A DNA stretch of 64,000 nt from assembly GCA_963728475.1 (NCBI GenBank), contig CAVSKL010000001.1:62001-126000 (forward strand), in the 5' to 3' direction. The notes beneath the pieces are model-generated. The model made no database searches and was not told where the DNA came from. It saw nothing but the letters and a program-made list of their open reading frames with translations. Of the stretch, positions 2,451-54,005 are shown piece after piece. This stretch comes from CAVSKL01 sp963728475 [NCBI: Candidatus Eiseniibacteriota bacterium] (GTDB lineage Bacteria; Eisenbacteria; RBG-16-71-46; JABDJR01). Position 1 is the first letter of the stretch; every line of letters starts with the position of its first letter. The position numbers were made by a program, and so were the translations under genes.

Positions 2451-3769
2451 GCCCCGATCTCCTCGCCCCCTTGATGTTCCTGGTGGTGCTGGTCTTCATC
2501 TTCACCGGCTTCCCGGTGGCGTTCGCCCTGGGCGGAACCGCCATGCTCTTCGCCTGGATCGGGGTCCAGGGGGGCTTCTTCCACTGGGGGCTCCTCTACG
2601 CCCTTCCCGAGCGAACCTACGGAGTGATGCAGAACCTGGTGCTGCTGGCGGTGCCGTTCTTCATCTTCATGGGCACCATGCTCCAGAAATCCCGCCTGGC
2701 CGAGGACCTCCTGAAGACCATCGGCATGCTGTTCGGGCCGCTCCGGGGCGGGTTGGCCATGGCGGTGGTGTTCGTGGGGGCGCTCCTGGCCGCGGCCACC
2801 GGCGTGGTGGGGGCGTCGGTGGTGGCGATGGGCCTCATCTCGCTCCCGGTCATGCTCCACTACCGCTATTCTCACGAGCTCTCGGCCGGGATCATCGCCG
2901 CCAGCGGGACCCTCGGTCAGATCATCCCTCCCAGCGTGGTGCTGGTGGTGCTCGCCGACCAGATGGGGGTATCGGTGGGCGATCTCTTCGTGGGGGCGCT
3001 GGTGCCGGGGGTGATGCTGGCGGTCTTCTACGCGGTGTACGTGGGGGGAGTGGCCTTCTTCCGCCCCGGGCTCGCGCCGGCGCTACCCGCCGCCGAGCGC
3101 GACCTCTCCGGGGCCGCGCTCCTCCGCCGGGTGGGGCTGGTGATGGTGCCGCCTCTGGTGCTGATCGTGCTCGTGCTCGGGAGCATCTTCGCCGGCATCG
3201 CCACCCCCACCGAGGCGGGCGCGCTGGGCTCGGTGGGAGCGATGGCGCTCGCGCTCGCCAACCGGCGCCTCAGCGCGCGCGCGATCCGCGAGACCTGCGT
3301 GGAGACCACCAAGCTCACCTCGATGGTGGTGTTCCTGCTGATCGGCTCCACCGCGTTCACGCTGGTCTTCCGGGGGCTGAACGGCGACCTCTGGATCGAA
3401 TCGCTCCTCACCGGCCTCCCCGGCGGCCGGATCGGATTCCTGATCCTGGGAAACCTCGCGATCTTCCTCCTCGGCTTCTTCATCGACTTCTTCGAGATCG
3501 CCTTCATCATCCTGCCGCTCCTGGTCCCGGCGGCGCGGAAGCTGGGGATCGACCTGGTCTGGTTCGGGGTGGTGATCGGGATGAATCTCCAGACCTCGTT
3601 CCTCACCCCGCCCTTCGGCTTCGCCCTCTTCTACCTGCGCGGGGTGGCGCCGCCGAAGGTGACCACGCCCGAGATCTACCGCGGGGTGGTGCCCTTCATC
3701 GGGATCCAGCTCCTGGCCCTGATCCTGGTGTGCGCGTTCCCGGGGCTGGTGAACGGCCTTCTGCACTAG
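2447..3769 (+). CDS. dctM: TRAP transporter large permease subunit DctM
   Basis: 440-residue integral membrane permease of a TRAP transporter, the family's usual length, with about twelve hydrophobic segments. Family features include the GLISLPVMLHYRYSHELSAG and GTLGQIIPPSVVLVVLAD blocks and the C-terminal LTPPFGFALFYLRG motif. It uses the sodium gradient to import an organic acid delivered by the DctP binding protein. The GTG start at 2447 overlaps the dctQ stop (GTGA), so the two are translationally coupled. The binding protein gene lies immediately downstream but on the opposite strand. Confidence 0.95.
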   Translation: MSPDLLAPLMFLVVLVFIFTGFPVAFALGGTAMLFAWIGVQGGFFHWGLLYALPERTYGVMQNLVLLAVPFFIFMGTMLQKSRLAEDLLKTIGMLFGPLRGGLAMAVVFVGALLAAATGVVGASVVAMGLISLPVMLHYRYSHELSAGIIAASGTLGQIIPPSVVLVVLADQMGVSVGDLFVGALVPGVMLAVFYAVYVGGVAFFRPGLAPALPAAERDLSGAALLRRVGLVMVPPLVLIVLVLGSIFAGIATPTEAGALGSVGAMALALANRRLSARAIRETCVETTKLTSMVVFLLIGSTAFTLVFRGLNGDLWIESLLTGLPGGRIGFLILGNLAIFLLGFFIDFFEIAFIILPLLVPAARKLGIDLVWFGVVIGMNLQTSFLTPPFGFALFYLRGVAPPKVTTPEIYRGVVPFIGIQLLALILVCAFPGLVNGLLH

Positions 3770-3778
3770 CCGCCCCTC

Positions 3779-3804
3779 GAAGAACCGGTTTCGGCCGCGC
3801 CCGG

Positions 3805-3807
<3 letters not shown>
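3779..3807. repeat. Intergenic repeat, copy A of four
   Basis: A roughly 29-base element reading gaagaACCGGtttCGGCCGC then GCCCGGTC. It resembles copies at 23789-23818, 46670-46700 and 58382-58410. All begin within about 30 bases after a stop codon. This copy lies between the convergent dctM and dctP and overlaps the last codon of dctP. Confidence 0.45.
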
Positions 3808-4902
<1,095 letters not shown>

Positions 4903-5051
4903 GACCACCTCCAGGTGAACGGGATGCGCCCAACCATGCCACGGGCCCGGGGATTCTTCAATCGCCCCCGCGCGAAGGCCGGTATAAGATCGTGCCGCCC
5001 GGCCGGGGCCCCGCCGGGCGGCACGGCGCTTCCGGGGGAGCCAGGCGCACG

Positions 5052-5732
5052 ATGGGCATACCGCTTCGGGACATCCAGGAACGGCGGACCTTTCCCTACG
5101 TCAACGTCGCGTTGATCGTGGCGAACTTCCTCGCCTTCTTCTACGAGCTCTCGCTCGGTCCCCACCTCCAGGGCTTCCTGGTGCAGTCGGCGTTCGTCCC
5201 GTCGGAGTACCTGGGCGCGGGCCGCCCCTTCGCGGGAACGGGCTCGATCCTGATTTCCATGTTCCTCCACGGGGGCTGGGCCCACATCGGCGGGAACATG
5301 CTCTACCTCTGGATCTTCGGCGACAACGTGGAGGACCGGCTGGGGCATTTCCGGTACCTGGTCGCCTACCTGGCCATGGGCTGGATCGCCTCCATGAGCC
5401 ATGCCCTGGCCAACCCCGGGTCCGCCGTCCCCTCGATCGGGGCCAGCGGGGCGATCGCCGGGGTGCTGGGAGCGTACCTGGTCCTCTTCCCCCGGGCCCG
5501 GGTGCTGACCCTCGTCCCCATCGGCTTCTTCATCCGCCTGGCCGAGCTTCCCGCCATTCTCGTCCTGGGCTTCTGGTTCGTGCTCCAGATCTTCAACGGG
5601 GCGATGTCCCTGGGAGCGGCCAGCGCCCAGACCACCGGCGTGGCCTGGTGGGCGCACATCGGCGGGTTCGCGGCCGGGCTGGTGCTGGGGGCGATCCTCC
5701 GGGTGGCCGGGGACCGCCGCGCTCCGGCCTGA
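5052..5732 (+). CDS. Rhomboid family intramembrane serine protease
   Basis: 226-residue polytopic membrane protein. Six or seven hydrophobic segments are visible. The serine nucleophile is Ser132 in GASGAIAG and the catalytic histidine is His202 in AHIGGFAAG, the rhomboid dyad. HGGWAHIGGNMLYLWIFG carries the conserved HxGGNMxxL motif that supports the oxyanion site. It cleaves membrane proteins within the bilayer; the substrate is not evident. The ATG at 5052 has a weak purine-rich site (GGGGGAG) upstream and gives the canonical short cytoplasmic N-terminus (IPLRDIQERRTFPYVN). No operon partner overlaps it. Confidence 0.93.
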   Translation: MGIPLRDIQERRTFPYVNVALIVANFLAFFYELSLGPHLQGFLVQSAFVPSEYLGAGRPFAGTGSILISMFLHGGWAHIGGNMLYLWIFGDNVEDRLGHFRYLVAYLAMGWIASMSHALANPGSAVPSIGASGAIAGVLGAYLVLFPRARVLTLVPIGFFIRLAELPAILVLGFWFVLQIFNGAMSLGAASAQTTGVAWWAHIGGFAAGLVLGAILRVAGDRRAPA

Positions 5733-5914: not shown

Positions 5915-6709
5915 ATGAACCGCTCGATGTCCGCTGCGGCGGCCTTCGCCGCGATCCTCGGCGCTTCTCTCCTCTTTCCCGCCCGCGGAGCCGCTCCGCA
6001 GGAGAAACCGGCGCCCCCCCGGGGAGAGCAGGAAGAGGGGTTCAAGAACCTGAAGGTCTTCCCCAAGGACATCCCCCACGACGACCTCATCGCGGCCATG
6101 CGCGGGTTCGCGGGGGCGCTCGGGGTCCGCTGCGACTTCTGCCACATGGACGACGCCGCCCATCCTCATCACCTGGACTTCGCCTCCGACGGCAAGGACA
6201 CCAAGAAGATCGCCCGGGTGATGATGAAGATGAACGGGGACATCAACGCCCAGTACATCTCCACGCTCGACCTGAAGAAGGCCGACGCCATGCAGGTCAA
6301 GTGCGTGACCTGCCACCGGGGGCTCCCGATCCCGCGGGACATCGGAGACGTGGTCGCCGACACCCTCGAGGCCAACGGTCCCGACGCCGCCGCCGCCACC
6401 TACAAGACCCTGCGCGATCAGTACTACGGAAGCGCCAGCTACGACTTCAGCGAGGGGGCGCTCAACGACCTCGCCGAGCAGCTCGCGGCCAAGGAGAAGC
6501 TGGACGAGGCGGTCCAGGTGCTGAAGCTCAACCAGCAGTATTACCCCGACTCGTCCCGGATCTACTCCATGCTCGGCCAGATCTACGCCGGGCAGGGAAA
6601 GAAGGATGAGGCGGTGACGGCCATGCAGAAGGCGATCTCGCTCGATCCGCAGAACCCGCGGCTCAAGCAGATGCTGGACCGGATCCAGAACGGCGGGGGG
6701 AACCGCTAG
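5915..6709 (+). CDS. Reaction-centre-type multihaem c cytochrome with TPR tail
   Basis: 264-residue secreted protein. Residues 1-27 are a signal peptide ending near ARGA. Two haem c sites are present, CDFCH (Cys73) and CVTCH (Cys130), within the sequence NLKVFPKDIPHDDLIAAMRG typical of the photosynthetic reaction-centre cytochrome c subunit fold. Residues about 185-260 form TPR helices (LKLNQQYYPDSSRIYSMLGQ, AMQKAISLDPQNPRLKQML). Full reaction-centre cytochromes bind four haems, so this is a shortened form. No photosystem gene is nearby. Comparable proteins occur in non-phototrophic Acidobacteria and Gemmatimonadota; periplasmic electron transfer is the likely role. Confidence 0.85.
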   Translation: MNRSMSAAAAFAAILGASLLFPARGAAPQEKPAPPRGEQEEGFKNLKVFPKDIPHDDLIAAMRGFAGALGVRCDFCHMDDAAHPHHLDFASDGKDTKKIARVMMKMNGDINAQYISTLDLKKADAMQVKCVTCHRGLPIPRDIGDVVADTLEANGPDAAAATYKTLRDQYYGSASYDFSEGALNDLAEQLAAKEKLDEAVQVLKLNQQYYPDSSRIYSMLGQIYAGQGKKDEAVTAMQKAISLDPQNPRLKQMLDRIQNGGGNR

Positions 6710-6971
6710 CCCGACTTTGGTGGCGGTGGCCCGGCCGTGCGGCCGGCGGGAAGGGGGCGGCGGTTCGCACTCCGTCCGGCCGTCGCCGCTGATCCCGCGC
6801 GTGCTACCGGTCAGCGCGATGTGGTACCCGAGGCGTGTGCGTCCCGACGCAAGGCGATTGTCCGCGCCGCCCGCCGGGTGGAGTCAATCGAAAACAGTGT
6901 GGCAGATTGTTGTCGCTTGTACCCCGGGCTCCCGCACAGGCATACGGAAACAATACATAAATGGGATCCAT

Positions 6972-8210
6972 TCACGTTCCCGTATCGACGTGTTCGCCCC
7001 CCCCGAGCGCCGCGCATACCCGCCGGTAGGCCTCGCGGAAGGGGATCCCCTCGTCGCGCACCATCCGGTAGGCGCGCTCCGCGGCCAGGAGCGAGGGATC
7101 CATGGCCCCCCGGAGCCGCTCCTCGCGGAACCGCACCCCGGGCACCGCGTGGGCCAGCAGCGCCGCAGTGTCCCGCGCCGAGTCCATCCCCCGGAAGAGA
7201 GGCTTCTTGATGAGCTGCAGGTCGCGGTGGTAACCCGACGGCATCTTGGCGGTGATCGCCAGGACCTCGGCCAGGGCCGCGGCCGCCTCGCCGCTCCGGC
7301 CGCGCGCCAGCTCGAACAGATCCGGGTTCCGCTTCTGCGGCATCATCGAGGACCCGGTGGTGACGGCGGCGGGAAGGGCCACGAACCCGAACTCCGCGGT
7401 GGCGAATAGGCAGAGGTCGGCGGCCAGCCGGCCCAGGTCCTGGGCCAGGAGCGACGCTTCGAAGAGCGCGGCCGCCTCGGCCTTGCCGCGGGAGAGCTGG
7501 ACCGAGGTCACCGGCTCCTGCGTCTCCGCGAATCCCAGTAACGCGGTGGTGCGGTCACGGTCGAGTTCCAGCGCCGGGACCCCGTAGCCCGCGGCCGAAC
7601 CCAGGGGGTTGCGGTCGGCCCGCCGGCGCGCCGCCCGGAGGCCGGTGGCGTCGTCCCGGAGTTCGGCGGCGTAGGCCCCGGCCCAGAGGCCGACGGTGGA
7701 GGGCATCGCCCGCTGGAGGTGGGTATAGCCGGGCATGGGGAGCGTGCCCTGGTCCGCGGCGAGCGCGTCCAGCGCCGCCGCCACCGACTCCGCCTCGGCG
7801 GCGAGACCGTCCAGCGCGTCGAGCAGCCACAGGCGGAGCGCCGCCATCACCTGGTCGTTGCGGGAGCGCCCCAGGTGGATGCGCCGTCCCGCTTCGCCCA
7901 CCCGCTCCACCAGCCGGTTTTCGAGCGCGGTGTGGGCGTCCTCCTCCTCCAGCGCCACCCGCCACTCGCCGCGGGCGTGGCTCCCGGCCAGATCCCGGAG
8001 CGCACCCTGGAGAGCGTCCAGATCGGCGGCGCTCAGGTAGCCTGCCTGGTGGAGCATGATCGCGTGCGCGATCGAGGCGCGGACGTCGTGGGTTACCAGC
8101 CGGTTGTCCAGCTCGTGGTCCTCCCCCGCGGTGTAGCGGAGGACGATCCGGTCCAGGGGTTCCCCCCGGTCCCACAGACGCGGGGCGCCGGCGGCGGTTT
8201 CGGATTTCAT
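6972..8210 (-). CDS. argH: Argininosuccinate lyase
   Basis: 412-residue enzyme of the aspartase/fumarase superfamily that splits argininosuccinate into arginine and fumarate, the last arginine step. The superfamily signature GSSMMPQKRNPD is present and carries the flexible catalytic loop. Other matches are HLGRSRNDQV, TAHTALENRL-type and MPGYTHLQRAMPST blocks. The family is usually about 450-470 residues; this copy lacks part of the C-terminal helical region but its catalytic core is complete. It is the last gene of the minus-strand arginine operon, 41 bases after the deacetylase gene. The 262 bases between its stop and the convergent cytochrome gene hold no gene that I can see. Confidence 0.95.
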   Translation of the reverse strand: MKSETAAGAPRLWDRGEPLDRIVLRYTAGEDHELDNRLVTHDVRASIAHAIMLHQAGYLSAADLDALQGALRDLAGSHARGEWRVALEEEDAHTALENRLVERVGEAGRRIHLGRSRNDQVMAALRLWLLDALDGLAAEAESVAAALDALAADQGTLPMPGYTHLQRAMPSTVGLWAGAYAAELRDDATGLRAARRRADRNPLGSAAGYGVPALELDRDRTTALLGFAETQEPVTSVQLSRGKAEAAALFEASLLAQDLGRLAADLCLFATAEFGFVALPAAVTTGSSMMPQKRNPDLFELARGRSGEAAAALAEVLAITAKMPSGYHRDLQLIKKPLFRGMDSARDTAALLAHAVPGVRFREERLRGAMDPSLLAAERAYRMVRDEGIPFREAYRRVCAALGGGEHVDTGT

Positions 8211-12454: not shown

Positions 12455-13555
12455 TCAGTACACCCCCAGCCCGGAAAACCGGAGTCCGGCGTCCTCGGGC
12501 AGATCCAGCAGGCGGTTCATCCATTGCACCGCGCCCCCCGCCGCCCCCTTCACCAGGTTGTCGATCACCGAGGTCACCACCGCCGTCCGGCCGCGGGAGG
12601 CGATTCCGAGCCGGCACCGGTTGGTCCCGACGACCTCGGTGAGGCGCGGCGGGGCCGCGGTCGCGGCCACGAACGGGCTCCCGGCATAGAACCCGTTCAC
12701 CGCCTCCACCAGCGCCGCCGCCGGGATCGGATCCCGGAGCTCCAACCGGACGGTGGCATGGATTCCCCGGACGAAGGGGCCGGAGTGGGGCACGAACTCG
12801 ACTTCGGGTTCGGCCCCACCCCGGGCTGCCCCCAGGAGCATCCGCATCTCGGCCTCGTGCCGGTGCGCGAGCGGCGAGTAGGCGTAAAGGTCGCTCCGCC
12901 GGTCCGGATGATGGGTCCCCGGGCCGGGCGCGCGCCCGCTTCCCGAGCTGCCGGTCACCGCGGAGACGAACACCGTCCCCCCGGCGAGGCCGAGGGCGAA
13001 GAAGGGATAGGCGGCCAGGGTCGCCGCGGTGGTGAAGCAGCCCGGCTGGGCGGCGTGCGGCGTGGTCGCGCCCCGGGCGTGCTCCGGAACCGCACAGATG
13101 AACTCCGCCGCCCGGGCCGGCGCCCGGTGGGGCCGGCCGTAGACCGACTCGAACCGCGCCGGGTCGGCGAAGCGGAAGTCGGCGGAGAGGTCCACCGCGT
13201 GCGTCCCGGCGCCGGCGCGGGCGAGGAGCGCGTCCAGCATCCCCGCGGTCTCGCCGTGGGGGGTGGCCGCAAAGATCGCCGCCGGCGCGCCGCCGGCGAG
13301 AGCGTCGGCGGCCGCTTCGGGCGGCTCGAACCGGAGCGCCTCGAGCCCGACCCCCGCCAGGTGCGGGAACGCCGCCACCACCGGTTCCCCCGCGCGGCTC
13401 CTCGAGACCACCGTTCGCGGCGCCAGCACCGGGTGTCCGGCCAGGATCCGCAGGAGTTCCCCGGCCACGTAACCGGTTCCCCCCAGAATCACCGCGGGGA
13501 CGGTCTCCGCCCGGGGCGGAACCAGGATGGCGCCGGCCGGCCGCGGCTCAGACAC
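12455..13555 (-). CDS. argC: N-acetyl-gamma-glutamyl-phosphate reductase
   Basis: 366-residue NADPH-dependent dehydrogenase making N-acetylglutamate semialdehyde. The Rossmann motif VILGGTGYVAGELLRIL is near residue 22, the catalytic cysteine is in HAAQPGCFTTAATLAAYP, and SAVTGSSGSGRAPGPGTHHP is the conserved loop after it. The GTG start at 13555 overlaps the preceding P-loop gene by eight bases. A 20-residue extension precedes the Rossmann strand. Length is slightly above the usual 340-350. Confidence 0.95.
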   Translation of the reverse strand: MSEPRPAGAILVPPRAETVPAVILGGTGYVAGELLRILAGHPVLAPRTVVSRSRAGEPVVAAFPHLAGVGLEALRFEPPEAAADALAGGAPAAIFAATPHGETAGMLDALLARAGAGTHAVDLSADFRFADPARFESVYGRPHRAPARAAEFICAVPEHARGATTPHAAQPGCFTTAATLAAYPFFALGLAGGTVFVSAVTGSSGSGRAPGPGTHHPDRRSDLYAYSPLAHRHEAEMRMLLGAARGGAEPEVEFVPHSGPFVRGIHATVRLELRDPIPAAALVEAVNGFYAGSPFVAATAAPPRLTEVVGTNRCRLGIASRGRTAVVTSVIDNLVKGAAGGAVQWMNRLLDLPEDAGLRFSGLGVY

Positions 13556-14624
13556 CGGTCGCCTCCCGGGCCGGGGCGTCGATCCCCAGCTGCGCGAGCA
13601 CCGCCTCCGCCAGCTCCCGGGGCTCGGTGCGGGCGTTCATGCCGGGAACCCCGGTCTCGCGCAGGATGAGCTTGGTGCCGGCGGAGTTGTCGGTGGCGGG
13701 TCCGGTGACGGCATGGGCCCGGAGTCCGTGCCGCTCCCGCAGCACCCGGACGCCGCCCCACGCCCCCACCGGGTCGTTGGCGGCCAGCACCACCGCCCCG
13801 AACGACTCCCGGAGGCCCGGATCGTCCAGGATCGCGTCCACCCCGTAGAGCCCCATGAGCCCGTCGCCGAGTTCCAGCACGATCACGTCCGGGGCGGAAG
13901 CGGCGAGCTGGGTCAGGAGCGCCCGGGCCACCCCCGGCGCGACCTCGGGGGTGGTGGTCACGACCCCCATGTCGGTGAAGACGTGCGTCTTCCGCGCCCC
14001 CGCGTCCTCCATGGCCAGCACGTCGCGCCGGAGCGAGACCCCGGTCGCCTTCCCCGCGGCCACGGTGAGCCCGCGATGGGTGAAGGCCTGGATGAGCGCG
14101 CACGCGGCCTGGGTCTTGCCCGCGTTCATGCAGGTGCCGACCACCGCCACCACCGGGATGCCGCGGGTGTCGAGCACCCCGTCCACCGGGAGCGCCCCCT
14201 GGCCGATGTGCGCGGGGCGGCCGACCCGTTCCCCCAGGAACGGGAACGCCAGCACCTGCCCCAGCACCTCGCACTCGAAGGGACGGCCGAGGTCGGGGTT
14301 GACCGCGTCGCAGATCCCGATCACCCCGCCGGTGTTGAGGATGTGCACGCGGTCCCCGGGCTTCACCGACTCCGGGAGATGCCCGGAGTAGCCGAAAAGC
14401 GCCTTGCGGTGCCCGAGCGCCCCCGCCACCACGTCGCCGGGTTTCACCTTGGAGAACCGCCCGGAGGGAAGCTCGATCAGGTCGTAGGTGCTCTTGGAGG
14501 TCAGCACCCGCACCGCGACCACCCCGCCTTCCACCGCGGGGATCTCGGAGGAGAGCCGCACCTCGCGCGAGAGCCGGCAGTTGAGGGTCACCGAGCCGAT
14601 CTTGTCGAGGAGGGCGCGCTTCAC
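13548..14624 (-). CDS. P-loop protein of unknown function inside the arginine operon
   Basis: 358 residues, not a standard arginine enzyme. Residues about 1-150 are strand-rich (TLNCRLSREVRLSSEIP, VKPGDVVAGALGHRKALFGY, VKPGDRVHILNTGGVIG). Residues about 150-345 are a P-loop NTPase fold with VAVVGTCMNAGKTQAACALI (Walker A) and VIVLELGDGLMGLYG (possible Walker B). The second half recalls the nucleotide-binding half of DUF1611 proteins such as the one at 18600-19709. The GTG start overlaps the argG stop (GTGA), and its stop overlaps argC, so it is firmly within the operon. The operon lacks a visible N-acetylglutamate synthase, so glutamate acetylation is a reasonable but unproven role. Confidence 0.85.
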   Translation of the reverse strand: MKRALLDKIGSVTLNCRLSREVRLSSEIPAVEGGVVAVRVLTSKSTYDLIELPSGRFSKVKPGDVVAGALGHRKALFGYSGHLPESVKPGDRVHILNTGGVIGICDAVNPDLGRPFECEVLGQVLAFPFLGERVGRPAHIGQGALPVDGVLDTRGIPVVAVVGTCMNAGKTQAACALIQAFTHRGLTVAAGKATGVSLRRDVLAMEDAGARKTHVFTDMGVVTTTPEVAPGVARALLTQLAASAPDVIVLELGDGLMGLYGVDAILDDPGLRESFGAVVLAANDPVGAWGGVRVLRERHGLRAHAVTGPATDNSAGTKLILRETGVPGMNARTEPRELAEAVLAQLGIDAPAREATGV

Positions 14625-15970
14625 TTCGCCCCCCCGTCCGCCGCCTCCGCCGCCTTCGCCGCGCCCGCCGCGTCCCGGACCGAGGCCCCGCCGCCCGCGG
14701 CCGCCGCCTCGCGGGCGCCGTTCCCCGGCGCGCCCGCCCGCGCGTGGAGCATGCCGGGGAGGGCGGAGAGCCGGGCGAACCCGCGGGCGTCGGCCGCGCT
14801 CCATTCACCGGCCGCCTCGCCGTAGACCCCGCGCGAGGCGCGCTTCAGCGAGAAAGGAGAGGAGACCCCGTCCACGAACACGCTCCCGGGGCGGAGGGTG
14901 AGGTGGACGGCCCCGGTCACCCGCTCCTGGGACCGGATGAAGAGGGCCTCGATGTCGCGGCACGCCGGTTCCAGGGCCTGCCCCTCGTGGACCAGGTCGC
15001 CGTAGACGACGGCGAGCCCGTCCTTCACCCGCTGCTGCCGGCCGGTGAGGGTGAGCTTCTCCAGCTCCCGGTGCGCCGCGATGAGGATCGCCGCCGCGGG
15101 AGCCTCGAAGGCCACCCGTCCCTTGAGCCCGAAGATGGTGTCGCCGAGGTGGATTCCCCGGCCGATCCCGAAGCCGCCGCCGAGCGCGTTCAGCCGTTCG
15201 ATCAGCGCCACCGGTTCCAGCGCCTCGCCGTCCAGCGCGACCGGGACGCCGCGCTCGAACGCCACCGTGCGCCGCTCCGCCGGCCGGGGCGGGTCGAAGG
15301 CGCCGCGGGTCAGCACCCAGGCGCCCTCGGGAAGCGACTCCACGGTGTCGTGGGTCTCGCGACCGCCGATGGTGGTGCCCCAGAGCCCGGCGTTGACCGA
15401 GTAGGCGGCCCGGTCCGCGGGCCAGTCGATGCCGCGACCGGCCAGGAACGCGGTCTCGTCCGCGCGGCTGAAGCCGTGGTCGCGGACCGGAGCCAGGATC
15501 TCCAGCTCCGGGGCCAGGGTCCGGAGCGCGACCTCGAACCGCACCTGGTCGTTGCCGGCGGCGGTGGAGCCGTGGGCGACCGCGGTCGCGCCGAGATCCC
15601 GCGCGGCCTCGGCCACCATCCGGGCCTGGAGCCCGCGCTCGGCCCCCACGCAGAGCGGATAGAGGTGCCCGCGCAGCACGTTCCCCATGATGAGGTACCG
15701 GATCGTCTCGTGGAAAAACGCGGCCCGGGCGTCCACCGAACGGTGGCCCGCCGCCCCCAGGGCCCGGGCGCGCGCCGCCAGCGCCTCGCGGGAGGCGGGG
15801 TCCAGGCCGCCGGTATCCACGGTGACCGCGATCACCTCGGCCCCGTGATGCTCCCGGAGCCACGGCACCAGGAAAGACGTATCGAGCCCGCCGCTATAGG
15901 CGAGCACGATCCGGGGCCGGTCCGAGGCGGCGCCGGGTCCGGTCCCGGGCGCGGAAAGAAGCTCAGCCAT
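14621..15970 (-). CDS. argG: Argininosuccinate synthase
   Basis: 449-residue ATP-dependent ligase joining citrulline and aspartate through a citrullyl-AMP intermediate. The PP-loop IVLAYSGGLDTSFLVPWL is near residue 20. Further family blocks are AHGSTAAGNDQVRFEVALR, SVNAGLWGTTIGGRE and the C-terminal TGAVHLTLRPGSVFVDG. The last 40 residues are alanine- and glycine-rich and beyond the family core. The ATG at 15970 overlaps the argR end by eight bases. Second gene of the operon after the regulator. Confidence 0.95.
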   Translation of the reverse strand: MAELLSAPGTGPGAASDRPRIVLAYSGGLDTSFLVPWLREHHGAEVIAVTVDTGGLDPASREALAARARALGAAGHRSVDARAAFFHETIRYLIMGNVLRGHLYPLCVGAERGLQARMVAEAARDLGATAVAHGSTAAGNDQVRFEVALRTLAPELEILAPVRDHGFSRADETAFLAGRGIDWPADRAAYSVNAGLWGTTIGGRETHDTVESLPEGAWVLTRGAFDPPRPAERRTVAFERGVPVALDGEALEPVALIERLNALGGGFGIGRGIHLGDTIFGLKGRVAFEAPAAAILIAAHRELEKLTLTGRQQRVKDGLAVVYGDLVHEGQALEPACRDIEALFIRSQERVTGAVHLTLRPGSVFVDGVSSPFSLKRASRGVYGEAAGEWSAADARGFARLSALPGMLHARAGAPGNGAREAAAAGGGASVRDAAGAAKAAEAADGGAK

Positions 15971-17454: not shown

Positions 17455-18603
17455 ATGGCCACCGAACGCGATCCCGGAGAGGTCCCCGACCCGGCTGCCG
17501 AGGCCTCGGGAGGGAACGGAAGCGCCGTCGACCTCTCCGCGGCGCTCCTCGACGAAGCGGCGTCCCAATCCCCCCTCATCGACCCGAGGCTGGACAACCA
17601 GCAGCGGGTGGCGGCGGATCCCACCCGCGACATCGAGGAGCGGATCGAGGCCTACGAGGACATCTTCGAGTCGGAGGTGGGCGACACCGTGCTCACCCGC
17701 GCCCGCAACATCGAGCGCGAGGTGGGACTCCGGCAGATCTTCCTCAAGTTCGAGGGGGGTAACCCGAGCGGGAGCCAGAAGGACCGGATCGCCTTCGCCC
17801 AGGTCATGGACGCGCTCCGCCGGGGGTTCGACACCATCACCGTCGCCACCTGCGGGAACTTCGGAGCGGCGCTGGCGGTGGCGGCCCGTTTCGCCGGGCT
17901 GCGTTGCGTGATCTACATCCCGACCGGTTACCACTCCAAGCGGCTGCAGGAGATCGGAGGCCAGGGAGCGGAGGTCGAGCGGGTGGAGGGAGACTACGAA
18001 GCGGCGGTGGCGGAGTCGCAGGCGCGCGCCGAGCGGGAGGAGTTCTACGACGCGAACCCCGGCGGGCCCAACACCCCGCTCCAGCTTCGCGCCTACGGCG
18101 AGATCGCCTACGAGATCTACGACGAGCTTCGCGACGCCCCCGCCGCGGTGGCGGTTCCGGTCTCGAACGGCACCACCCTGGCCGGGATCTACAAGGGCTT
18201 CCTGAGCCTCCACCGCCGCGGCAAGACCTCGCGCATCCCGCGCATGATCGCGGGGTCCTCGTTCGGCAAGAACCCCATCGTCCAGGCCTTCGTGAAGAAC
18301 CTCACCTACTGCGAGGACCTGCGCCCGGCGGTGGTGAAGGAGACCCCGGTCAACGAGCCGCTCATCAACTGGCACTCCATCGACGGCGACTACGCCCTGG
18401 ACGCGATCCGGGACACCGGGGGCTGGGCGTCCTACGGCAGCGACAAGGCCATGCTGGGCTGGGCGCGCAAGGTGAGCGCCACCGAAGGGCTGAACGCGCT
18501 TCCCGCCTCCACCGCCGGCCTCATCGCCCTTCTCGACCGCCACGCGCGGGAACCCCTGGCCCCCGACCGCTACGTGGTGGTCCTCACCGGCAGGAAGATA
18601 TGA
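17455..18603 (+). CDS. Threonine-synthase-like PLP-dependent enzyme
   Basis: 382 residues of the fold-type II PLP family (threonine synthase, serine dehydratase, cysteine synthase). The cofactor lysine is in FEGGNPSGSQKDRIAFAQ; TVATCGNFGAALAVAARFAG carries the asparagine loop that contacts substrate; VSNGTTLAGIYKGF is the glycine-rich phosphate-binding loop. About 60 acidic residues precede the catalytic core. It overlaps the DUF1611 gene by four bases (ATGA) and opens the operon, so its substrate is probably an amino acid linked to the glutamate chemistry downstream. True threonine synthase activity is possible but no homoserine genes are nearby. Confidence 0.85.
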   Translation: MATERDPGEVPDPAAEASGGNGSAVDLSAALLDEAASQSPLIDPRLDNQQRVAADPTRDIEERIEAYEDIFESEVGDTVLTRARNIEREVGLRQIFLKFEGGNPSGSQKDRIAFAQVMDALRRGFDTITVATCGNFGAALAVAARFAGLRCVIYIPTGYHSKRLQEIGGQGAEVERVEGDYEAAVAESQARAEREEFYDANPGGPNTPLQLRAYGEIAYEIYDELRDAPAAVAVPVSNGTTLAGIYKGFLSLHRRGKTSRIPRMIAGSSFGKNPIVQAFVKNLTYCEDLRPAVVKETPVNEPLINWHSIDGDYALDAIRDTGGWASYGSDKAMLGWARKVSATEGLNALPASTAGLIALLDRHAREPLAPDRYVVVLTGRKI

Positions 18604-19709
18604 ACGGAACCACCGGGGCCGCGCCCCGCGCGTTTCCCGAGGGGAACGCGATCGTCTGGTGCGGGGGCGCCTTCGGCACCCCCAACGGGAAGACCGCCCA
18701 TGGGCTCGTCCGCCGCACTGCCCGTTACCGGGTGCTCTCGGTGGTGGACCCGTCCCGGGCCGGGGAGGACGCGGGGCGGATCCTCGACGGGCGCCCCGCC
18801 GGCATCCCGGTCCTGGGATCGCTCTCCGAGGCCCTGGCCGCGGCGCCGGAGCCCGCCACCCACCTGGTGATCGGGCTCGCCCCCGACGGGGGCCGCCTTC
18901 CCCCCGAGGGGCGGAAGGCGGTGCTGGAGGCGATCGACGCGGGGCTGAACGTGGACTCCGGCCTCCACGACTTCCTCTCCGAAGACCCGGAGATCGCGGC
19001 CAGGGCCTCGGCCCGGGGAGTGGCCCTGCGGGACGTACGGAAGCCCCCTCCCCGGAAGGACCTCCACTTCTTCAGCGGAAAGATCGAGGAGGTGACCGCG
19101 TTCACGGTGGCGGTTCTCGGCACCGACTCGGCGGTGGGCAAGCGCACCACCGCCTGGGTGCTGGCCGACGCCTACGCCGCCCTCGGCGTCCACGCCGAGG
19201 TGATCGGCACCGGCCAGACCGCCTGGATGCAGGGGGTGCGGTTCGGGATCATCCTCGACTCCCTGGTGAACGACTTCCTCTCCGGCGAGATCGAGCACGC
19301 GGTCCACTCCGCCTGGCGCGAGACCGGGGCCGCGGTGCTCATCATCGAGGGCCAGGGCAGCCTCATGAACCCCGCCTATCCGGGAGGGTACGAGATCCTG
19401 GCCGCGGCCCGCCCCGACGCCATCGTGCTCCAGCACGCCCCGGCGCGGCTCGAGTACGACGGCTTCCCCGGCTACGCCATGGACCCGGTGGAGGTCCAGA
19501 TCCGCGCGCTCGAGATCCTCTCGAAACGAAAGGTGGCGGCGATCACGGTGAACCACGAAGGGCTGCGCCCGGAGGAGATTCCCGCCGTTTGCGCCGAGCT
19601 GACCCGCGCCACCGGGCTCCCGGCGGTGGACGTGCTCCGCGACGGGGCGGGCCGGGTGGTGGAGGCGCTGGCCCCGCTCCGGGCCCGGGGGAAGGCGGGA
19701 CGCCCATGA
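18600..19709 (+). CDS. DUF1611-family protein, DgcN-like (putative glutamate N-acetyltransferase)
   Basis: 369 residues. The N-terminal half (to about 130) is a Rossmann-like domain: YRVLSVVDPSRAGEDAGRIL, THLVIGLAPDGG. The C-terminal half is P-loop-like: AVLGTDSAVGKRTTAWVLAD, VIGTGQTAWMQGVRFGIILD, LIIEGQGSLMNPAYPGGYEI. This architecture defines DUF1611. The characterised member DgcN N-acetylates D-glutamate in marine bacteria and works with the epimerase DgcA. An enolase-superfamily epimerase lies two genes downstream, which supports that reading. The ATG overlaps the preceding stop and its TGA overlaps the next ATG. The exact substrate is inferred. Confidence 0.82.
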   Translation: MNGTTGAAPRAFPEGNAIVWCGGAFGTPNGKTAHGLVRRTARYRVLSVVDPSRAGEDAGRILDGRPAGIPVLGSLSEALAAAPEPATHLVIGLAPDGGRLPPEGRKAVLEAIDAGLNVDSGLHDFLSEDPEIAARASARGVALRDVRKPPPRKDLHFFSGKIEEVTAFTVAVLGTDSAVGKRTTAWVLADAYAALGVHAEVIGTGQTAWMQGVRFGIILDSLVNDFLSGEIEHAVHSAWRETGAAVLIIEGQGSLMNPAYPGGYEILAAARPDAIVLQHAPARLEYDGFPGYAMDPVEVQIRALEILSKRKVAAITVNHEGLRPEEIPAVCAELTRATGLPAVDVLRDGAGRVVEALAPLRARGKAGRP

Positions 19710-22135
19710 CCGAGAACCGCCGGCGCGGTCCCGACCGCCGCGGCGAATCCCGGAACGCTTCCCCCGGCCGCCGCGCCGCCGACCGCGGGAAGGGCCCGGC
19801 CGGCGGCAACGCCCTGGCCCGGGTCCTGGTGTGGGACCGCGTCGTGGTGGGCCCGCCCCGGCTGGAGAAGCGGCGGGTGATCACCCCCTACACGGTGGAG
19901 CGGGGCAAGGAGAGCGAGACCCTGGACCTCATCTACCGGTACGAGGAGGACGTCTTCGACCCCGCCGACCCCGAATCGGCGAACCTGGCCGCCATGGTCA
20001 CCGCACAGCTCGCGCTCAACTACGGGCTGTTCGCGCGGGAGATCGTCTTCCACGGGCCTTTCGACCGCGCCGACCGGCGGTTCCTGGCCGACATGGCCCA
20101 GAACACCGCCCGCGAGATCTACGTGAAGAAGCTCCTGGAGCCGAACCCGCTCCTGGTGGAGGGGGCGTCGGGGTTCCGGGCGGAGGAGCGTGAGAGCTAC
20201 CTCCAGGCCGCGCTCACCTTCCCCGAGGCCTCGGACGGGGCCGCCAAGGCCCCACGGCCCCGCCCGTGGTCCGCCGACCCCAACCGGTACGCGGTGCTCT
20301 CCAGCGGCGGCAAGGACAGCCTGTTGAGTTACGGGCTCCTGGGGGAGCTGGGCAAGGACGCGCACGCGGTGTTCGTGAACGAGTCGGGCAAGCACTGGTT
20401 CACCGCGCTCAACGCCCACCGGAGCCTGGCCGCGGCCACGCCGCGGACCACCTCGCGGGTGTGGACCAACTCCGACCGCCTCTTCGCCTGGATGGCCCGG
20501 CGCCTCCCGTTCGTGCGGCCGGATTTCCAGAAGGTGCGCGCCGACGAGTACCCGGTCCGGCTCTGGACGGTGGCGGTGTTCCTGTTCGGGGCGCTTCCGG
20601 TGATGAGGAAGCGCGGCCTGGGGCGGCTGGTGATCGGGGACGAGTACGACACCACCCGCCGCATGACCCGGGACGGCGTCCCCCACTACGACGGGCTCTA
20701 CGACCAGAGCGTGTACTTCGACACCGCGCTCAGCCGCTACTTCGGCCGCAAGGGCTGGCGGGTGGCGCAGTTCTCCATCCTTCGCCACCTGTCGGAACTC
20801 CTGATCCAGAAGATCCTCACCGAGCGGTATCCCGAACTCCAGAAGGACCAGGTGTCGTGCCACGCCGCCCACATGGAGGGGGAACGGGTGCGGCCGTGCG
20901 GGTCGTGCGAAAAGTGCCGGCGGATCGTGTCCATGCTCGCGGTGCTGGGGGCCGACCCCGCCCGCTGCGGCTACGGCCCCGAGCAGGTGAAGAGCAGCCT
21001 GGCCTCGATCGCGGCCAAGGGGGTGGCCCAGGACGCGGAGGACGCCCAGGAGCTGGCGTTCCTGCTCAAGGAGAAGGGGCTGGTCGGGACCACCGGCGCC
21101 GCCTTCACCGCCAAGGAGCATCCCGAGGTGCTCATGCTCCGGTTCGACCGGGACCGGGCGCCGGCCAACGCGATGCCGGTGGAGCTCCGCGAGCCCCTCT
21201 ACCGGATCTACCTGGAACACGCCCGGGGGGCCGCGCGCAAGAGCGGCCGCATGTGGATCGAGTTCGACCCGCTCAACGACCCCGACCGGGAGCGTCCCTA
21301 TCCCTTCGCCGCCCCCGCCCTTCCCGGGGGGGGCGCCGGCGCGGGCGCCGGGGACCGGGACTTCGTGCTCGGGATGATGAACTGGCCCCAGGCCGAAGCC
21401 CGGTTGAAGCAGGTGGACGTGGCGCTCCTCCCGGTGGGCTCCATCGAGCAGCACGGCCCGCACCTGCCGCTGGACACCGACGCCTTCGACGCCGACTACC
21501 TCGCGCGCGAGGTGGCGCGAGGCTGCAGCGAGCCCCGGCCGCTGGTGCTCCCCCTCATCCCCTACGGGGTCTCGTACCATCACGACGACTTCAAGGGGAC
21601 CCTGAGCATCAGCCCCGAGGCGCTCTCCCGGCTGGTTTTCGAGGTGGGAATGAGCGCGGCCCGAAACGGCGTCACCAAGCTCGTGATCGTCAACGGCCAC
21701 GGCGGCAACTCCCCCGCGCTCCAATTCGCGGCCCAGATGATCAACCGCGACGCCCAGATCTTCACCTGCGTGGACACCGGGGAGTCGAGCGATTCCGAGA
21801 TCAACGCCCTCACCGAGACCCCCAACGACGTGCACGCGGGGGAAATCGAGACCAGCACCACCCTCGCGGTGCGGCCGGACCTGGTCGATCTGGCCAAGGC
21901 CAAGCGCATGGTGCCCCGGTTCTCCAACCGCTACCTGGAGTTCACCTCCAGCCACAGCGTGAGCTGGTACGCGCGCACCTCGCGGCTCTCGGCCAGCGGG
22001 ATCATGGGCGATCCGACCAAGGCCAGCCGGGAGAAGGGCGAGCGGATGTGGGCGATCATGGTGAAGAACCTGGTGGAGCTGGTCGAGGACATCAAGGGGA
22101 TGAGCCTGGACGAGATCCACTACACCCGCCGCTGA
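19706..22135 (+). CDS. Fusion of a MurL-like PP-loop domain and a creatininase-family amidohydrolase
   Basis: 809 residues. Residues 1-35 are charged and disordered. Residues about 35-530 resemble MurL, the ATP-dependent epimerase of UDP-MurNAc-L-Ala-L-Glu: a helical entry domain (ALNYGLFAREIVFHGPFDRA), a PP-loop SGGKDS at 200-205, GDEYDTTRRM, and a cysteine cluster RPCGSCEKCRRI. The PP-loop fits adenylation of a carboxylate. Residues about 557-809 are creatininase-like: VALLPVGSIEQHGPHLPLDTDAF (metal-binding Glu, His, Asp), VIVNGHGGNSPALQF and NDVHAGEIETSTTLAV. Such enzymes hydrolyse cyclic or formyl amides. A glycine-rich linker (about 540-550) separates the halves. I know of no described protein with this pairing. 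The MurL assignment is from motif memory only. Confidence 0.75.
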   Translation: MTENRRRGPDRRGESRNASPGRRAADRGKGPAGGNALARVLVWDRVVVGPPRLEKRRVITPYTVERGKESETLDLIYRYEEDVFDPADPESANLAAMVTAQLALNYGLFAREIVFHGPFDRADRRFLADMAQNTAREIYVKKLLEPNPLLVEGASGFRAEERESYLQAALTFPEASDGAAKAPRPRPWSADPNRYAVLSSGGKDSLLSYGLLGELGKDAHAVFVNESGKHWFTALNAHRSLAAATPRTTSRVWTNSDRLFAWMARRLPFVRPDFQKVRADEYPVRLWTVAVFLFGALPVMRKRGLGRLVIGDEYDTTRRMTRDGVPHYDGLYDQSVYFDTALSRYFGRKGWRVAQFSILRHLSELLIQKILTERYPELQKDQVSCHAAHMEGERVRPCGSCEKCRRIVSMLAVLGADPARCGYGPEQVKSSLASIAAKGVAQDAEDAQELAFLLKEKGLVGTTGAAFTAKEHPEVLMLRFDRDRAPANAMPVELREPLYRIYLEHARGAARKSGRMWIEFDPLNDPDRERPYPFAAPALPGGGAGAGAGDRDFVLGMMNWPQAEARLKQVDVALLPVGSIEQHGPHLPLDTDAFDADYLAREVARGCSEPRPLVLPLIPYGVSYHHDDFKGTLSISPEALSRLVFEVGMSAARNGVTKLVIVNGHGGNSPALQFAAQMINRDAQIFTCVDTGESSDSEINALTETPNDVHAGEIETSTTLAVRPDLVDLAKAKRMVPRFSNRYLEFTSSHSVSWYARTSRLSASGIMGDPTKASREKGERMWAIMVKNLVELVEDIKGMSLDEIHYTRR

Positions 22136-22145
22136 CGATTCCCCC

Positions 22146-23213
22146 ATGAAGATCACCCGGGTGGAGGCATGGCCGGTCGAGATGGAACTCACCGAGCCCT
22201 ATGCCATCGCCTACGAGGCGGTGGAGCGCACGGTGAACGTGTTCCTGCGGGTGGAGACCGACGCCGGGCCGACCGGGTTCGGGTGTTCCGCCCCCGACTT
22301 CGCGGTGACCGGAGAGACCCCCGAGTCGGTGCTGGAGGCCGCGGCCTCGGTGTTCGCCCCCGGCCTGGCCGGCGAGGATCCCCTCCGCTGGACGTTTCTC
22401 CTGGAGAGGGTGCGGAGCGGCATGGAGTTCCGCCCCGCCGCCCTGGCCGGCCTGGACATGGCGCTCTTCGACATCCTGGGGAAGGCGGCGGGAGTGCCGG
22501 TTTGGAAGCTCCTGGGGGGGTATCGCACCTCCATCGAGACCTCGGTCACCGTCGGCATCCTCCCCGAGGCGGAGACGGTGGCCCGCGCCCGCGGCCGCGT
22601 GGCCGAGGGGTTCCGGCGGATCAAGCTCAAGGGGGGCCTCGACGTGGACCTGGACATCGCCCGGGTGCGGCGGGTGCGCGAGGCGGTGGGAGACGCGGTG
22701 GAGCTGCGCTTCGACGCCAACCAGGGCTACACCGTGGACCAGGCCTTGCGGTTCGTGGCCGGGGTGCGCGAGGCGCGGATCGAGATCCTGGAGCAGCCTA
22801 CCCCGCGGGGCGAGCCGGATCTCATGGGCCGGGTCACCAGCCAGGTGCCGATCCCGGTCATGGCCGACGAGAGCCTGATGACGCTCCGCGACGTCTACAA
22901 CCTGGCCCGGCGCGAGCTGGCGGACATGGTGAACGTGAAGCTCATGAAGGTGGGGGGGATCTCCGAGGCGCTCCAGATCAACGCGGTCGCGCGTTCCGCC
23001 GGCCTCGAGGTCATGGTGGGCTGCATGGACGAGGCCGCGCTCGCCATCTCCGCCGGCCTCCACTTCGCGCTCGCCCGTCCCAACGTGGTCTACGCGGACC
23101 TGGACGGGCACCTGGGGCTGATCGGCGATCCTTCGGCGGGGGCGGTGGAATTGCGCGGCGGCGTGCTCCACCCCTCCGGCCGGCCCGGGTTCGGGTTCGA
23201 GCCGGCGGGGTGA
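22146..23213 (+). CDS. Enolase-superfamily dipeptide epimerase, L-Ala-D/L-Glu epimerase or DgcA-like
   Basis: 355 residues. The N-terminal capping domain includes PYAIAYEAVERTVNVFLRVE and FGCSAPDFAVTGETPESVL, the substrate-specificity loop of Ala-Glu epimerases. The barrel has IKLKGGLDVDLD (catalytic Lys in the KxK-like motif), ELRFDANQGY (metal Asp), EILEQP (metal Glu), MADESLMT (metal Asp) and VNVKLMKVGGI (second catalytic Lys). It racemises the alpha-carbon of a glutamate residue, either in murein-derived L-Ala-D-Glu or in N-acetylglutamate. Both fit the operon. It starts ten bases after the fusion gene with no clear ribosome site, so coupling is likely. Confidence 0.88.
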   Translation: MKITRVEAWPVEMELTEPYAIAYEAVERTVNVFLRVETDAGPTGFGCSAPDFAVTGETPESVLEAAASVFAPGLAGEDPLRWTFLLERVRSGMEFRPAALAGLDMALFDILGKAAGVPVWKLLGGYRTSIETSVTVGILPEAETVARARGRVAEGFRRIKLKGGLDVDLDIARVRRVREAVGDAVELRFDANQGYTVDQALRFVAGVREARIEILEQPTPRGEPDLMGRVTSQVPIPVMADESLMTLRDVYNLARRELADMVNVKLMKVGGISEALQINAVARSAGLEVMVGCMDEAALAISAGLHFALARPNVVYADLDGHLGLIGDPSAGAVELRGGVLHPSGRPGFGFEPAG

Positions 23214-23229
23214 GGAAGGGAGGAGATCG

Positions 23230-23778
23230 ATGGGCGATCGCGCGCCGCGGGAGCGGTTCGGGCCGGGGTTGATCCAGGTCTACACCGGGGACGGCAAGGG
23301 CAAGACCACCGCCGCGGTGGGCCTGGGGCTTCGCGCCGCCGGCCACGGGTTCCGGGTGTTCCTCCTCCAGTTCATGAAGGGGGACCCGGAGTACGGCGAG
23401 CTTCTCGCGCTGCGCCGCGTGCCCGGCTTCGAGTTCGAGCAGTACGGTCGGCGGAGCTTCGTGAAGTGGCGGGAACCCGATCCCGAGGACCTCGGCCCGG
23501 CCGCCGCGGGCATGGAGCGAGCGGGCGCGCTCCTGCGCGCCGCCCGCCACGACCTGGTGATCCTGGACGAGATCCTGTGCGCGGTGGATTACGGCCTGGT
23601 GCCGGAGGTGGAGGTGCTGGCGCTCCTTGATCTCAAACCGGCGGGGATGGAGCTGGTGCTCACCGGTCGCGACGCCGGCCCCTCGATCCTGGCCCGGGCC
23701 GATCTCGTGACCGAGATGCGCGAGGTCCGCCATCCCTTCACCCGCGGGATACCGGCGCGAAAAGGAATCGAGTTCTAG
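23230..23778 (+). CDS. cobO: Cob(I)yrinic acid a,c-diamide adenosyltransferase, CobO/BtuR family
   Basis: 182-residue P-loop enzyme that attaches the 5'-deoxyadenosyl group of ATP to reduced corrinoid. Motifs: GLIQVYTGDGKGKTTAAVGL (the reversed phosphate loop typical of CobA/CobO), GFRVFLLQFMKG, and LVILDEILCAVDYGLV (Walker B region). Strong ribosome site GGGAGGAG before the ATG at 23230. It follows the epimerase by 16 bases and is probably in the same transcript, though no other cobalamin gene is present. This may hint that an adenosylcobalamin enzyme is used nearby, or only that the gene is an operon passenger. Confidence 0.93.
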   Translation: MGDRAPRERFGPGLIQVYTGDGKGKTTAAVGLGLRAAGHGFRVFLLQFMKGDPEYGELLALRRVPGFEFEQYGRRSFVKWREPDPEDLGPAAAGMERAGALLRAARHDLVILDEILCAVDYGLVPEVEVLALLDLKPAGMELVLTGRDAGPSILARADLVTEMREVRHPFTRGIPARKGIEF

Positions 23779-53151: not shown

Positions 53152-53852
53152 TCACTTCCCTCCGGGTAAACGACCGAATCTCGACCAGGTTCGGCTTCAG
53201 GACCGAACGCGGAGAGAAGCGCACCGAGGGCCGCCTCCCCCTCGCGAGCCGCATCGAAGGCGGCGGCCTTGAGGCTCTCGCTCACCACCGAGGGGCTTAC
53301 TCCGAACCGCGCCGCCACGTCCTTCTGCAGCTCGACCCGGGCGGCGCGCACGTAGGCCATTTGCTTGCCGGTCCAGCGGGACCGGAGCGCGTGGAGGAGG
53401 CCGAAGAGGGCGCCGGCCGCCCGGTCGGAGACCTCGCCCAGGCCTTCCACCGCGGCCCAGCCGTCGCCCTTGCGAACCCGTTCGAGGGCGGCCCGCGCGC
53501 GGTGGAAGACCGGCCCGTCCATCTCCGCCACCTGGACCGAGGCCCCGGTGGAGAGTCCGCCCACTCCCAACCCGAACGCCAGGCGGACCGGGGCGAGTTC
53601 CTCGGAGAGCCGGATCAAGGCGTCCAAGGCGGGCGCTCCCCGCCGGAAGAGCCCCTGGAACTCGTCCCCGGCCGTGAGGGCCAGCGGGGCGGCCAGGCTC
53701 GGGTCCCCCACCTCGCGATTGGCCGCGGCCAGGGCCCGCTTGAGCCGGTCCTGGAACCCCAGCCGGTCCTCGATGGCCCGGGAAGCCACCACATCCCCGA
53801 TCAGGGCGAGAAAGAGACCATTTGATTCGTGTTTATGGCCGATCTCATGCAT
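53148..53852 (-). CDS. SatD-family protein
   Basis: 234 residues. FLALIGDVVASRAIEDRLGF and PLALTAGDEFQGLFRRGAPA are the conserved SatD motifs (IGDVxxSR and TxGDEFQ), and the C-terminal part KDVAARFGVSPSVVSESLKA looks like a helix-turn-helix. SatD was named from a Streptococcus acid-tolerance operon; its biochemical role is unsettled. The first gene of a two-gene unit with the DUF3307 membrane protein. The ATG at 53852 is immediately preceded by A+T-rich sequence TAATATAGCC on the coding strand, a likely promoter region. Confidence 0.85.
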   Translation of the reverse strand: MHEIGHKHESNGLFLALIGDVVASRAIEDRLGFQDRLKRALAAANREVGDPSLAAPLALTAGDEFQGLFRRGAPALDALIRLSEELAPVRLAFGLGVGGLSTGASVQVAEMDGPVFHRARAALERVRKGDGWAAVEGLGEVSDRAAGALFGLLHALRSRWTGKQMAYVRAARVELQKDVAARFGVSPSVVSESLKAAAFDAAREGEAALGALLSAFGPEAEPGRDSVVYPEGSE

Positions 53853-54005
53853 GATTCGGCTATATTACCGATCCCAGGCTCGCCGTCAACCCGGAAAACC
53901 GGCGGGAGAAGGAAGGCGTCCCCCCCGCGGTTTGCGCGATCGGGGACGGCGAGACACAATGAGAGGGTCGTTCGCCGGTACCCCTCATCGAGTTCGGGAT
54001 CCGTC

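Follow-up and report, generated by a model that had tools for sequence, protein, structure and literature searches.

The subject of this analysis is a group of genes in a 64,000-nucleotide stretch of contig CAVSKL010000001.1 from CAVSKL01 sp963728475, a member of Candidatus Eiseniibacteriota (positions 62,001 to 126,000; hereafter the window, with a G+C content of 70.7%). At this locus, a threonine-synthase-like enzyme (THRS), a DUF1611 protein, a fusion of a MurL-like PP-loop domain (MURL) with a creatininase domain (CRE), and a dipeptide-epimerase-like enzyme (EPIM) are encoded, followed by CobO (Table 1). The Pfam families occur in the order PALP, DUF1611_N and DUF1611_C, Creatininase, MR_MLE_N/C and CobA_CobO_BtuR. 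Four-base ATGA overlaps are present at the junctions of the THRS and DUF1611 genes and of the DUF1611 and fusion genes, while the EPIM start follows the fusion after 10 bases and the CobO start follows EPIM after 16 bases. The original prediction of five open reading frames (ORFs) in one orientation, the first three joined by four-base overlaps, was confirmed. In effect, THRS, DUF1611, MURL, CRE and EPIM represent a five-domain cassette that recurs in unrelated bacterial phyla.

Table 1. Features of the cassette locus and its neighbour in the window
Feature	Position	Strand	Family match or extent
THRS, fold-type II pyridoxal phosphate (PLP) enzyme, threonine-synthase-like	17455-18603	+	PF00291, E 1.8e-55
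DUF1611 protein, distant DgcN relative	18600-19709	+	PF07755, E 1.1e-60; PF17396, E 3.6e-27
PP-loop/creatininase fusion, 809 residues	19706-22135	+	MURL domain and CRE domain
MURL, N-terminal fusion domain, MurL-like/QueC-fold PP-loop	19706-21322	+	modelled part 19820-21322
CRE, C-terminal fusion domain, creatininase-family amidohydrolase	21359-22135	+	PF02633, E 4.6e-72
EPIM, enolase-superfamily dipeptide-epimerase-like enzyme	22146-23213	+	PF13378, E 5.6e-52
CobO/BtuR corrinoid adenosyltransferase, neighbour only	23230-23778	+	PF02572, E 1.7e-60

Neighbourhood analysis across phyla, which had been proposed as a check, showed that the cassette is not confined to one genome, so the refuting outcome named with the prediction, a neighbourhood limited to this genome, did not come about. 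It recurs in 48 other genomes from seven phyla, and in all 48 the parts that are present keep the same order and strand; the complete set, arranged as THRS-DUF1611-MURL-CRE-EPIM, was found in 33 of them. A search with the fusion protein, based on one genome per species, revealed 17 loci with 49-61% identity, which according to record names include Phycisphaerae, Krumholzibacteriota, Desulfobacterales, Desulfosarcina, Acidobacteria, Thermoanaerobaculales, Aminicenantes, Gemmatimonadota, Flexithrix and others. THRS and DUF1611 accompany the fusion in 16 of these 17 loci, and EPIM in 13. CobO had been counted as an operon member as well, which was not borne out: relatives occur in none of the 17 cassette loci and in none of 198 loci (E up to 1e-4), in a run that did detect all five cassette parts. 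Having no relative near the cassette in other genomes, CobO was rejected as one of its parts.

The frequency of the cassette was estimated by searches of single phyla, in which the fusion above 1200 bits (in the phylum of Desulfosarcina) or the MURL domain above 680 bits (in six other phyla) was counted, and weaker matches, namely creatininase alone and remote MurL-like proteins, were excluded. Carriers amounted to 39 of 1447 genomes in the seven phyla, including the seven centre genomes that had been picked as known carriers: 5/247 in the phylum of Desulfosarcina, 4/249 in Gemmatimonadota, 3/247 in Acidobacteria, 7/296 in the phylum of Flexithrix, 2/246 in that of Phycisphaerae, 10/80 in Krumholzibacteriota and 8/82 in the seventh phylum searched. 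Two carriers are named strains, Desulfosarcina alkanivorans PL12 and Flexithrix dorotheae DSM 6795. In Flexithrix, a cassette-type EPIM is not located beside the other parts, and the best match elsewhere in the genome reaches 314 bits.

Parts of the cassette are missing from some loci (L-numbers denote loci and G-numbers genomes, as labelled in the analysis). THRS is absent in six of 48, four of them at contig ends, while L014 and L147 have room on the contig; DUF1611 is absent in one (L014) and CRE in five. Since L154 and L156 keep only THRS-DUF1611-MURL and L155 lacks CRE, all with contig room available, these three parts look like the core of the cassette. The fusion is not universal either. 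In G370, MURL and CRE are separate frames in an unchanged order, and short MURL frames followed by CRE in G471 (586 residues), G990 (521) and G886 (513) suggest that the two domains are likewise unfused there, frameshift errors being possible. Mirror-tree correlations among the five parts ranged from 0.43 to 0.82 and, lacking a background set, carry little weight.

A maximum-likelihood tree was built from 48 MURL domains (47 loci and the window), with group labels derived either from the title of the record or from the phylum search that yielded the genome. It requires 21 label changes, where 8 would be the minimum; several are forced by starred branches, and 16 of the 45 inner branches are weak. 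This tree implies transfer between phyla. The label changes, together with the low frequency, indicate that the cassette moves between phyla, and therefore it probably holds every special step of its pathway. When five parts keep one order in unrelated phyla and are exchanged between these, sequence alone can hardly give a stronger sign of a single pathway. Plasmid carriage was considered for the MURL domain and rejected, as the domain was without a match among plasmid records.

Judged by sequence, all cassette parts are members of known superfamilies. THRS scores 410.6 bits against the NCBIfam model PRK06381 ("threonine synthase"), passing its cut-off of 266, and 106.7 bits against thrC TIGR00260, below the cut-off of 167.1. 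Its N-terminus bears a conserved extension of about 45 residues, and in 16 aligned sequences the motifs NP.G.QKDR and.CGN.G are invariant, replacing NPTGSFKDR and STGNTSA of solved threonine synthases. Another ThrC above the cut-off is encoded in 16 of 17 cassette genomes, so a function of THRS as the sole housekeeping threonine synthase was rejected. The sub-threshold thrC score, the altered active-site loops and the second ThrC mark THRS as a paralogue, probably with other chemistry.

The DUF1611 protein reaches 157.9 bits against DgcN NF041892, a third of the cut-off of 480, and its P-loop GTDSA.GKRTT is invariant in 17 sequences. DgcN is an N-acetyltransferase acting on glutamate, and in the DgcN-DgcA system a DUF1611 protein and an enolase-superfamily racemase are encoded together. 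This D-glutamate pathway is mentioned in PMC10845958, and dgcN in PMC12363236. A second, remote DUF1611-type P-loop protein lies on the minus strand of the window at 13551-14627 (ORF 13548-14804; PF07755 at a sub-cut-off E of 0.0019), inside an arginine cluster read as argR-argG-ORF-argC-argD-argF-argB-argE-argH. Relatives, 24-35% identical, occur in seven plasmid records, two of them annotated as DUF1611. Because DgcN N-acetylates glutamate, the arginine-cluster protein could be a non-standard N-acetylglutamate synthase.

The PP-loop domain had been likened to MurL, and this holds in the sense of a distant relation. The MurL model NF041275 is matched by 14 of 15 aligned MURL members (up to E 0.1; best 5.1e-9), whereas the window protein alone is a weak match, at 24.1 bits (E 1.1e-5) against a cut-off of 700 bits; identity with true MurL is rejected by this score. 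The structure prediction that had been suggested for the domain was performed with AlphaFold2 and gave a model with a predicted local distance difference test (pLDDT) value of 88.7. Structure comparison (VIA Z) returned QatC at 15.1 (321 residues, root-mean-square deviation 4.9), Cap9 at 13.0 and QueC at 12.6, the QatC match spanning most of the model length. Sequence and predicted fold together relate the domain to MurL, QueC and QatC. MURL retains the SGGK(D/E)S motif and a C-x12-CxxCxxC site, and the PP-loop fold, the SGGxDS-type loop and the predicted zinc-type cysteines place it in the QueC-fold PP-loop superfamily. Six of 15 members match the Pfam QueC family, none of them better than E 0.01, and a profile search of the PDB with the MURL alignment produced chance-level matches only.

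According to PMC13329287, QueC carries SGGxDS and C(x)8CxxCxxC motifs and uses adenosine triphosphate (ATP) to convert a carboxylate to an amide and a nitrile. For MurL, conversion of ATP to adenosine monophosphate (AMP) is reported and adenylation is proposed (PMC8788868). Because QueC converts a carboxylate with ATP and MurL yields AMP from it, carboxylate adenylation is, by analogy, the likely chemistry of MURL. Stand-alone remote MurL-like proteins of 458-497 residues were also observed in L099 (7181-8554), L101 (2558-4048) and L102 (1232-2722), which turned up when the phyla of G001 and G008 were searched; those of L101 and L102 sit amid glycosyltransferase- or sugar-enzyme-like genes (named by eye). 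Other branches of the MurL/QueC fold may thus await description.

CRE scores 242.7 bits in Pfam against a gathering threshold of 31.3, which places it in the creatininase family. Residues E581, H583, D590, D592, H665, H710 and E715, presumably metal-binding, are invariant in 15 sequences. The best-scoring family among creatininases is MftE (TIGR03964), at 157.4 bits and below the cut-off of 172.

The solved structures nearest to EPIM are 3jva, 1jpm and 3rit. In 14 sequences, K160, K162, D190, E216, D241, K265, K268 and D318-x-D320 are invariant; these residues are taken to be the catalytic lysines, the metal ligands and the dipeptide-type DxD motif. The KxK motif, the D/E/D triad, the second lysine and DxD at the C-terminal end of the barrel assign EPIM broadly to the dipeptide epimerases, and the DxD is present in 3jva, 1jpm, 3rit and 3r0k and absent in 2p88. 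Two acidic residues, D51 and D295, are likewise invariant in the 14 sequences and align with E51 and with the D of GCMDES in 3rit. Of the five top-ranking solved structures shown, 3rit alone carries both acids, and 2p88 has just the first. The 3rit/3ro6 enzyme is presumably a cationic-dipeptide epimerase, a specificity link for which the literature search found no supporting paper. EPIM reaches 220.5 bits against the L-Ala-D/L-Glu epimerase model NF041118 (cut-off 500) and 157.2 bits against DgcA NF042940 (cut-off 400). A different dipeptide-epimerase-like enzyme, 34-35% identical to EPIM, is encoded in L154 (2532-3590) and L156 (2378-3586), beside a DacB-like carboxypeptidase (named by eye) and a few kb from the EPIM-less cassette.

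The surroundings of the cassette were compared in 34 loci from 32 genomes, where neighbour families, mostly named by eye, were defined as those shared by at least three loci. Controls were 60 windows, 20 around thrC or murI matches and 40 random, and 16 further cassettes from two phylum searches served as an independent set. The mechanosensitive channel MscS was found in 7/34 cassette loci, 2/16 independent ones and 2/60 controls, CorA in 7/34, 3/16 and 1/60, the membrane protein DUF5698 in 6/34, 2/16 and 1/60, and HSP20 in 5/34, 1/16 and 0/60. At least one of the first three was seen at 14/34 loci, compared with 4/60 controls (p 0.0001), and CorA by itself recurs in the independent set (p 0.028). 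No enrichment was observed for P-type ATPase, CPA2 or CaCA neighbours (p about 0.13) or for a histidine-kinase family used as a check.

Some cases at the operon level, according to longest-frame gene calls, are informative. In L144, the order is DUF5698-mscS-THRS, with mscS (6099-7046) overlapping the THRS frame (7042-8154) by five bases. L095 has an mscS on the same strand 5 bases upstream of the cassette, and L066 has one 18 bases downstream; L016 has a Na/Ca antiporter 7 bases downstream of the cassette, and L093 a K-Cl-cotransporter-like protein 479 bases upstream of it. A DUF5698 protein is encoded near the cassette in L001 (6997-7656), with relatives in L003, L006, L014, L015, L016, L143 and L144, the last of which immediately precedes mscS on the same strand. 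Next to the cassette of L067 lies a protein of 659 residues (3535-5511) in which a glutathione-synthase/RimK-type ATP-grasp ligase is fused to an N-formylglutamate amidohydrolase domain. As precedent for mscS beside solute genes, only general statements on mechanosensitive channels were met in the accessible parts of the literature.

The reading that is favoured, tentatively and with a little less than even confidence, is that of a self-contained, horizontally spread cassette encoding an ATP-driven route that changes the stereochemistry of an amino acid or dipeptide, perhaps an osmotic-stress solute. In such a route, MURL would adenylate a carboxylate on an amino acid or a dipeptide-like compound, presumably as QueC and MurL do, and EPIM would invert the C-terminal residue of a dipeptide bearing a free N-terminal amine. 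CRE might open or cleave an amide formed on the way, the DUF1611 protein might acylate or otherwise activate an amino group, and THRS could produce or consume an unusual amino acid through PLP chemistry. Together, the five parts would provide a one-way, ATP-driven alteration of stereochemistry in an amino-acid compound. The neighbourhood suggests a link of the cassette to osmotic or ionic stress. The tendency of ion and mechanosensitive channels to lie next to or within the operon makes a cellular solute, made or remodelled under such stress, the most likely product, rather than a murein fragment that is eaten.

A number of observations weigh against this proposal. Two candidate epimerases, MURL and EPIM, in one route are not accounted for, and nine of the 48 loci lack an adjacent EPIM, six of these having contig room. 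One of these six genomes, G015, carries EPIM elsewhere: CRE and EPIM occupy a separate site beside an N-run, a split read as an assembly join at that run, and in G017 both are on another contig. Group labels on the MURL tree cluster more than in shuffles (mean 32.7 changes), so the spread of the cassette is partly vertical and its inheritance mixed. MscS, CorA and DUF5698 are absent near most cassette loci and were chosen after their recurrence had been seen; the 40 random control windows were drawn unevenly from ten contigs of ten genomes. In the independent set, which is small, any of the three occurs in 4/16 against 4/60 (p 0.056), and MscS alone is not significant (p 0.19). The window itself has no such neighbour within 10 kb, a single MscS-like frame lying 30 kb away (53826-55166). 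Finally, proteome acidity, a crude sign of a salty habitat, did not differ between cassette and other genomes of the G002 phylum (p 0.45; 11 cassette windows from 10 genomes against 16 of 18 others, two being unscorable), the other 13 of 40 windows, from other phyla, having been set aside for want of a matched set.

The strongest competitor, possible though unlikely, is that the cassette makes a secondary metabolite or a cofactor without any link to salt stress, such as a peptide that an MftE-like CRE trims, and that the channels are neighbours by chance. The rank of MftE as the top creatininase family (157 of 172 bits), a patchy, transferred distribution typical for such clusters, and the moderate neighbour enrichment all speak for it. 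However, the fusion is 49-62% identical between phyla, and neither a radical S-adenosylmethionine enzyme nor a non-ribosomal peptide synthetase nor a dedicated exporter was recognised in families of at least three of the 34 loci, among frames of at least 80 residues, a range that leaves precursor peptides outside its scope.

The original prediction described the locus as an operon centred on the stereochemistry of glutamate. Its recurrence as a unit and the relation of its parts to enzymes that invert or activate amino acids stood, but a common glutamate substrate was unsupported, as the scores lie far below the cut-offs. In its fullest form, a D-glutamate or murein Ala-D-Glu pathway would have EPIM and MURL flip glutamate, DUF1611 N-acetylate D-glutamate, CRE cleave the dipeptide and THRS take the product. 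The DUF1611 protein, MURL and EPIM each have a distant glutamate-handling relative, the placement of a DUF1611 gene beside an enolase-superfamily racemase recalls DgcN-DgcA, and the cassette of L067 is flanked by the ATP-grasp/N-formylglutamate amidohydrolase fusion. The glutamate link is weak, because every likeness to a glutamate enzyme falls below its family cut-off, and the acids at positions 51 and 295 of EPIM are not found in the Ala-Glu epimerase 1jpm. Among neighbour families of at least three of the 34 loci, no murein hydrolase and no muropeptide transporter was recognised, an HtrA-like protease being seen by eye in two loci, and the DacB-like neighbour in L154 and L156 (by eye) pairs with the different epimerase, not with that of the cassette. 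Such a pathway is improbable, with glutamate being one possible candidate among substrates.

A MurI above the cut-off is encoded in 8 of 17 cassette genomes, including the single-contig G004 and G016, and therefore a role in supplying D-glutamate for peptidoglycan is not general; none was found in the other 9, among them the closed Desulfosarcina genome G009, most of the rest being incomplete metagenome-assembled genomes. That MURL, for which MurL is the nearest curated family, substitutes for MurI where the latter is absent is very improbable, as a cassette in 39 of 1447 genomes is too sporadic for a general essential step and no MurD-type gene was recognised among recurrent neighbours of the 34 loci, where no search was aimed at MurD2.

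In a bolder version, which is unlikely, the cassette would be transferable as a whole and suffice to make osmolytes or stress solutes of a new class: a dipeptide-like compound with a D-configured or otherwise inverted residue, built by a MurL/QueC-type carboxylate-activating enzyme, inverted by the epimerase, trimmed by the creatininase and, in some carriers, released through a co-transcribed mechanosensitive channel. The claim that the unit had not been described before agrees with the literature covered, in which no account of the cassette was found, most subscription papers lying outside that coverage. Within the same coverage, no paper combining a dipeptide epimerase with a creatininase was found, and DUF1611 returned only papers unrelated by title; the one genome paper that a multi-term search brought up mentions neither DUF1611 nor creatininase, and the main text of a 2026 survey of the QueC family contains no MurL, creatininase, epimerase or threonine synthase. 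The cassette offers a new, testable context for the MurL/QueC fold and for the barely characterised DUF1611 family, with two named strains as carriers.

Comparison with known systems places each part near an established family and sets the whole apart. CRE belongs to the same family as MftE, the creatininase-family peptidase of mycofactocin; in contrast to it, CRE is fused to a PP-loop domain, and mycofactocin genes were not recognised among the recurrent neighbours of the 34 loci. With QueC, QatC and Cap9 (PF06508), MURL shares the fold, the SGGxDS-type loop and the CxxCxxC cysteines. No que or qat genes, nor those of cyclic-oligonucleotide-based anti-phage signalling systems (CBASS), were recognised among the same neighbours, and the cysteine spacing is x12 against x8 given for QueC in PMC13329287. 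MURL is related distantly in sequence to MurL, in 14 of 15 members, and presumably shares carboxylate adenylation with conversion of ATP to AMP; it differs by its score of 24 of 700 bits, its junction to a creatininase domain and the frequent co-residence of MurI. EPIM keeps the catalytic residues and the DxD motif of the enolase-superfamily dipeptide epimerases (3jva, 1jpm, 3rit), but it remains under the Ala-Glu cut-off, carries the acidic pair D51/D295 as in 3rit and belongs to a fixed cassette. Finally, as in DgcN-DgcA, a DUF1611 protein is paired with an enolase-superfamily enzyme, whereas the cassette proteins lie far under the DgcN and DgcA cut-offs and are joined by three extra domains, THRS, MURL and CRE.

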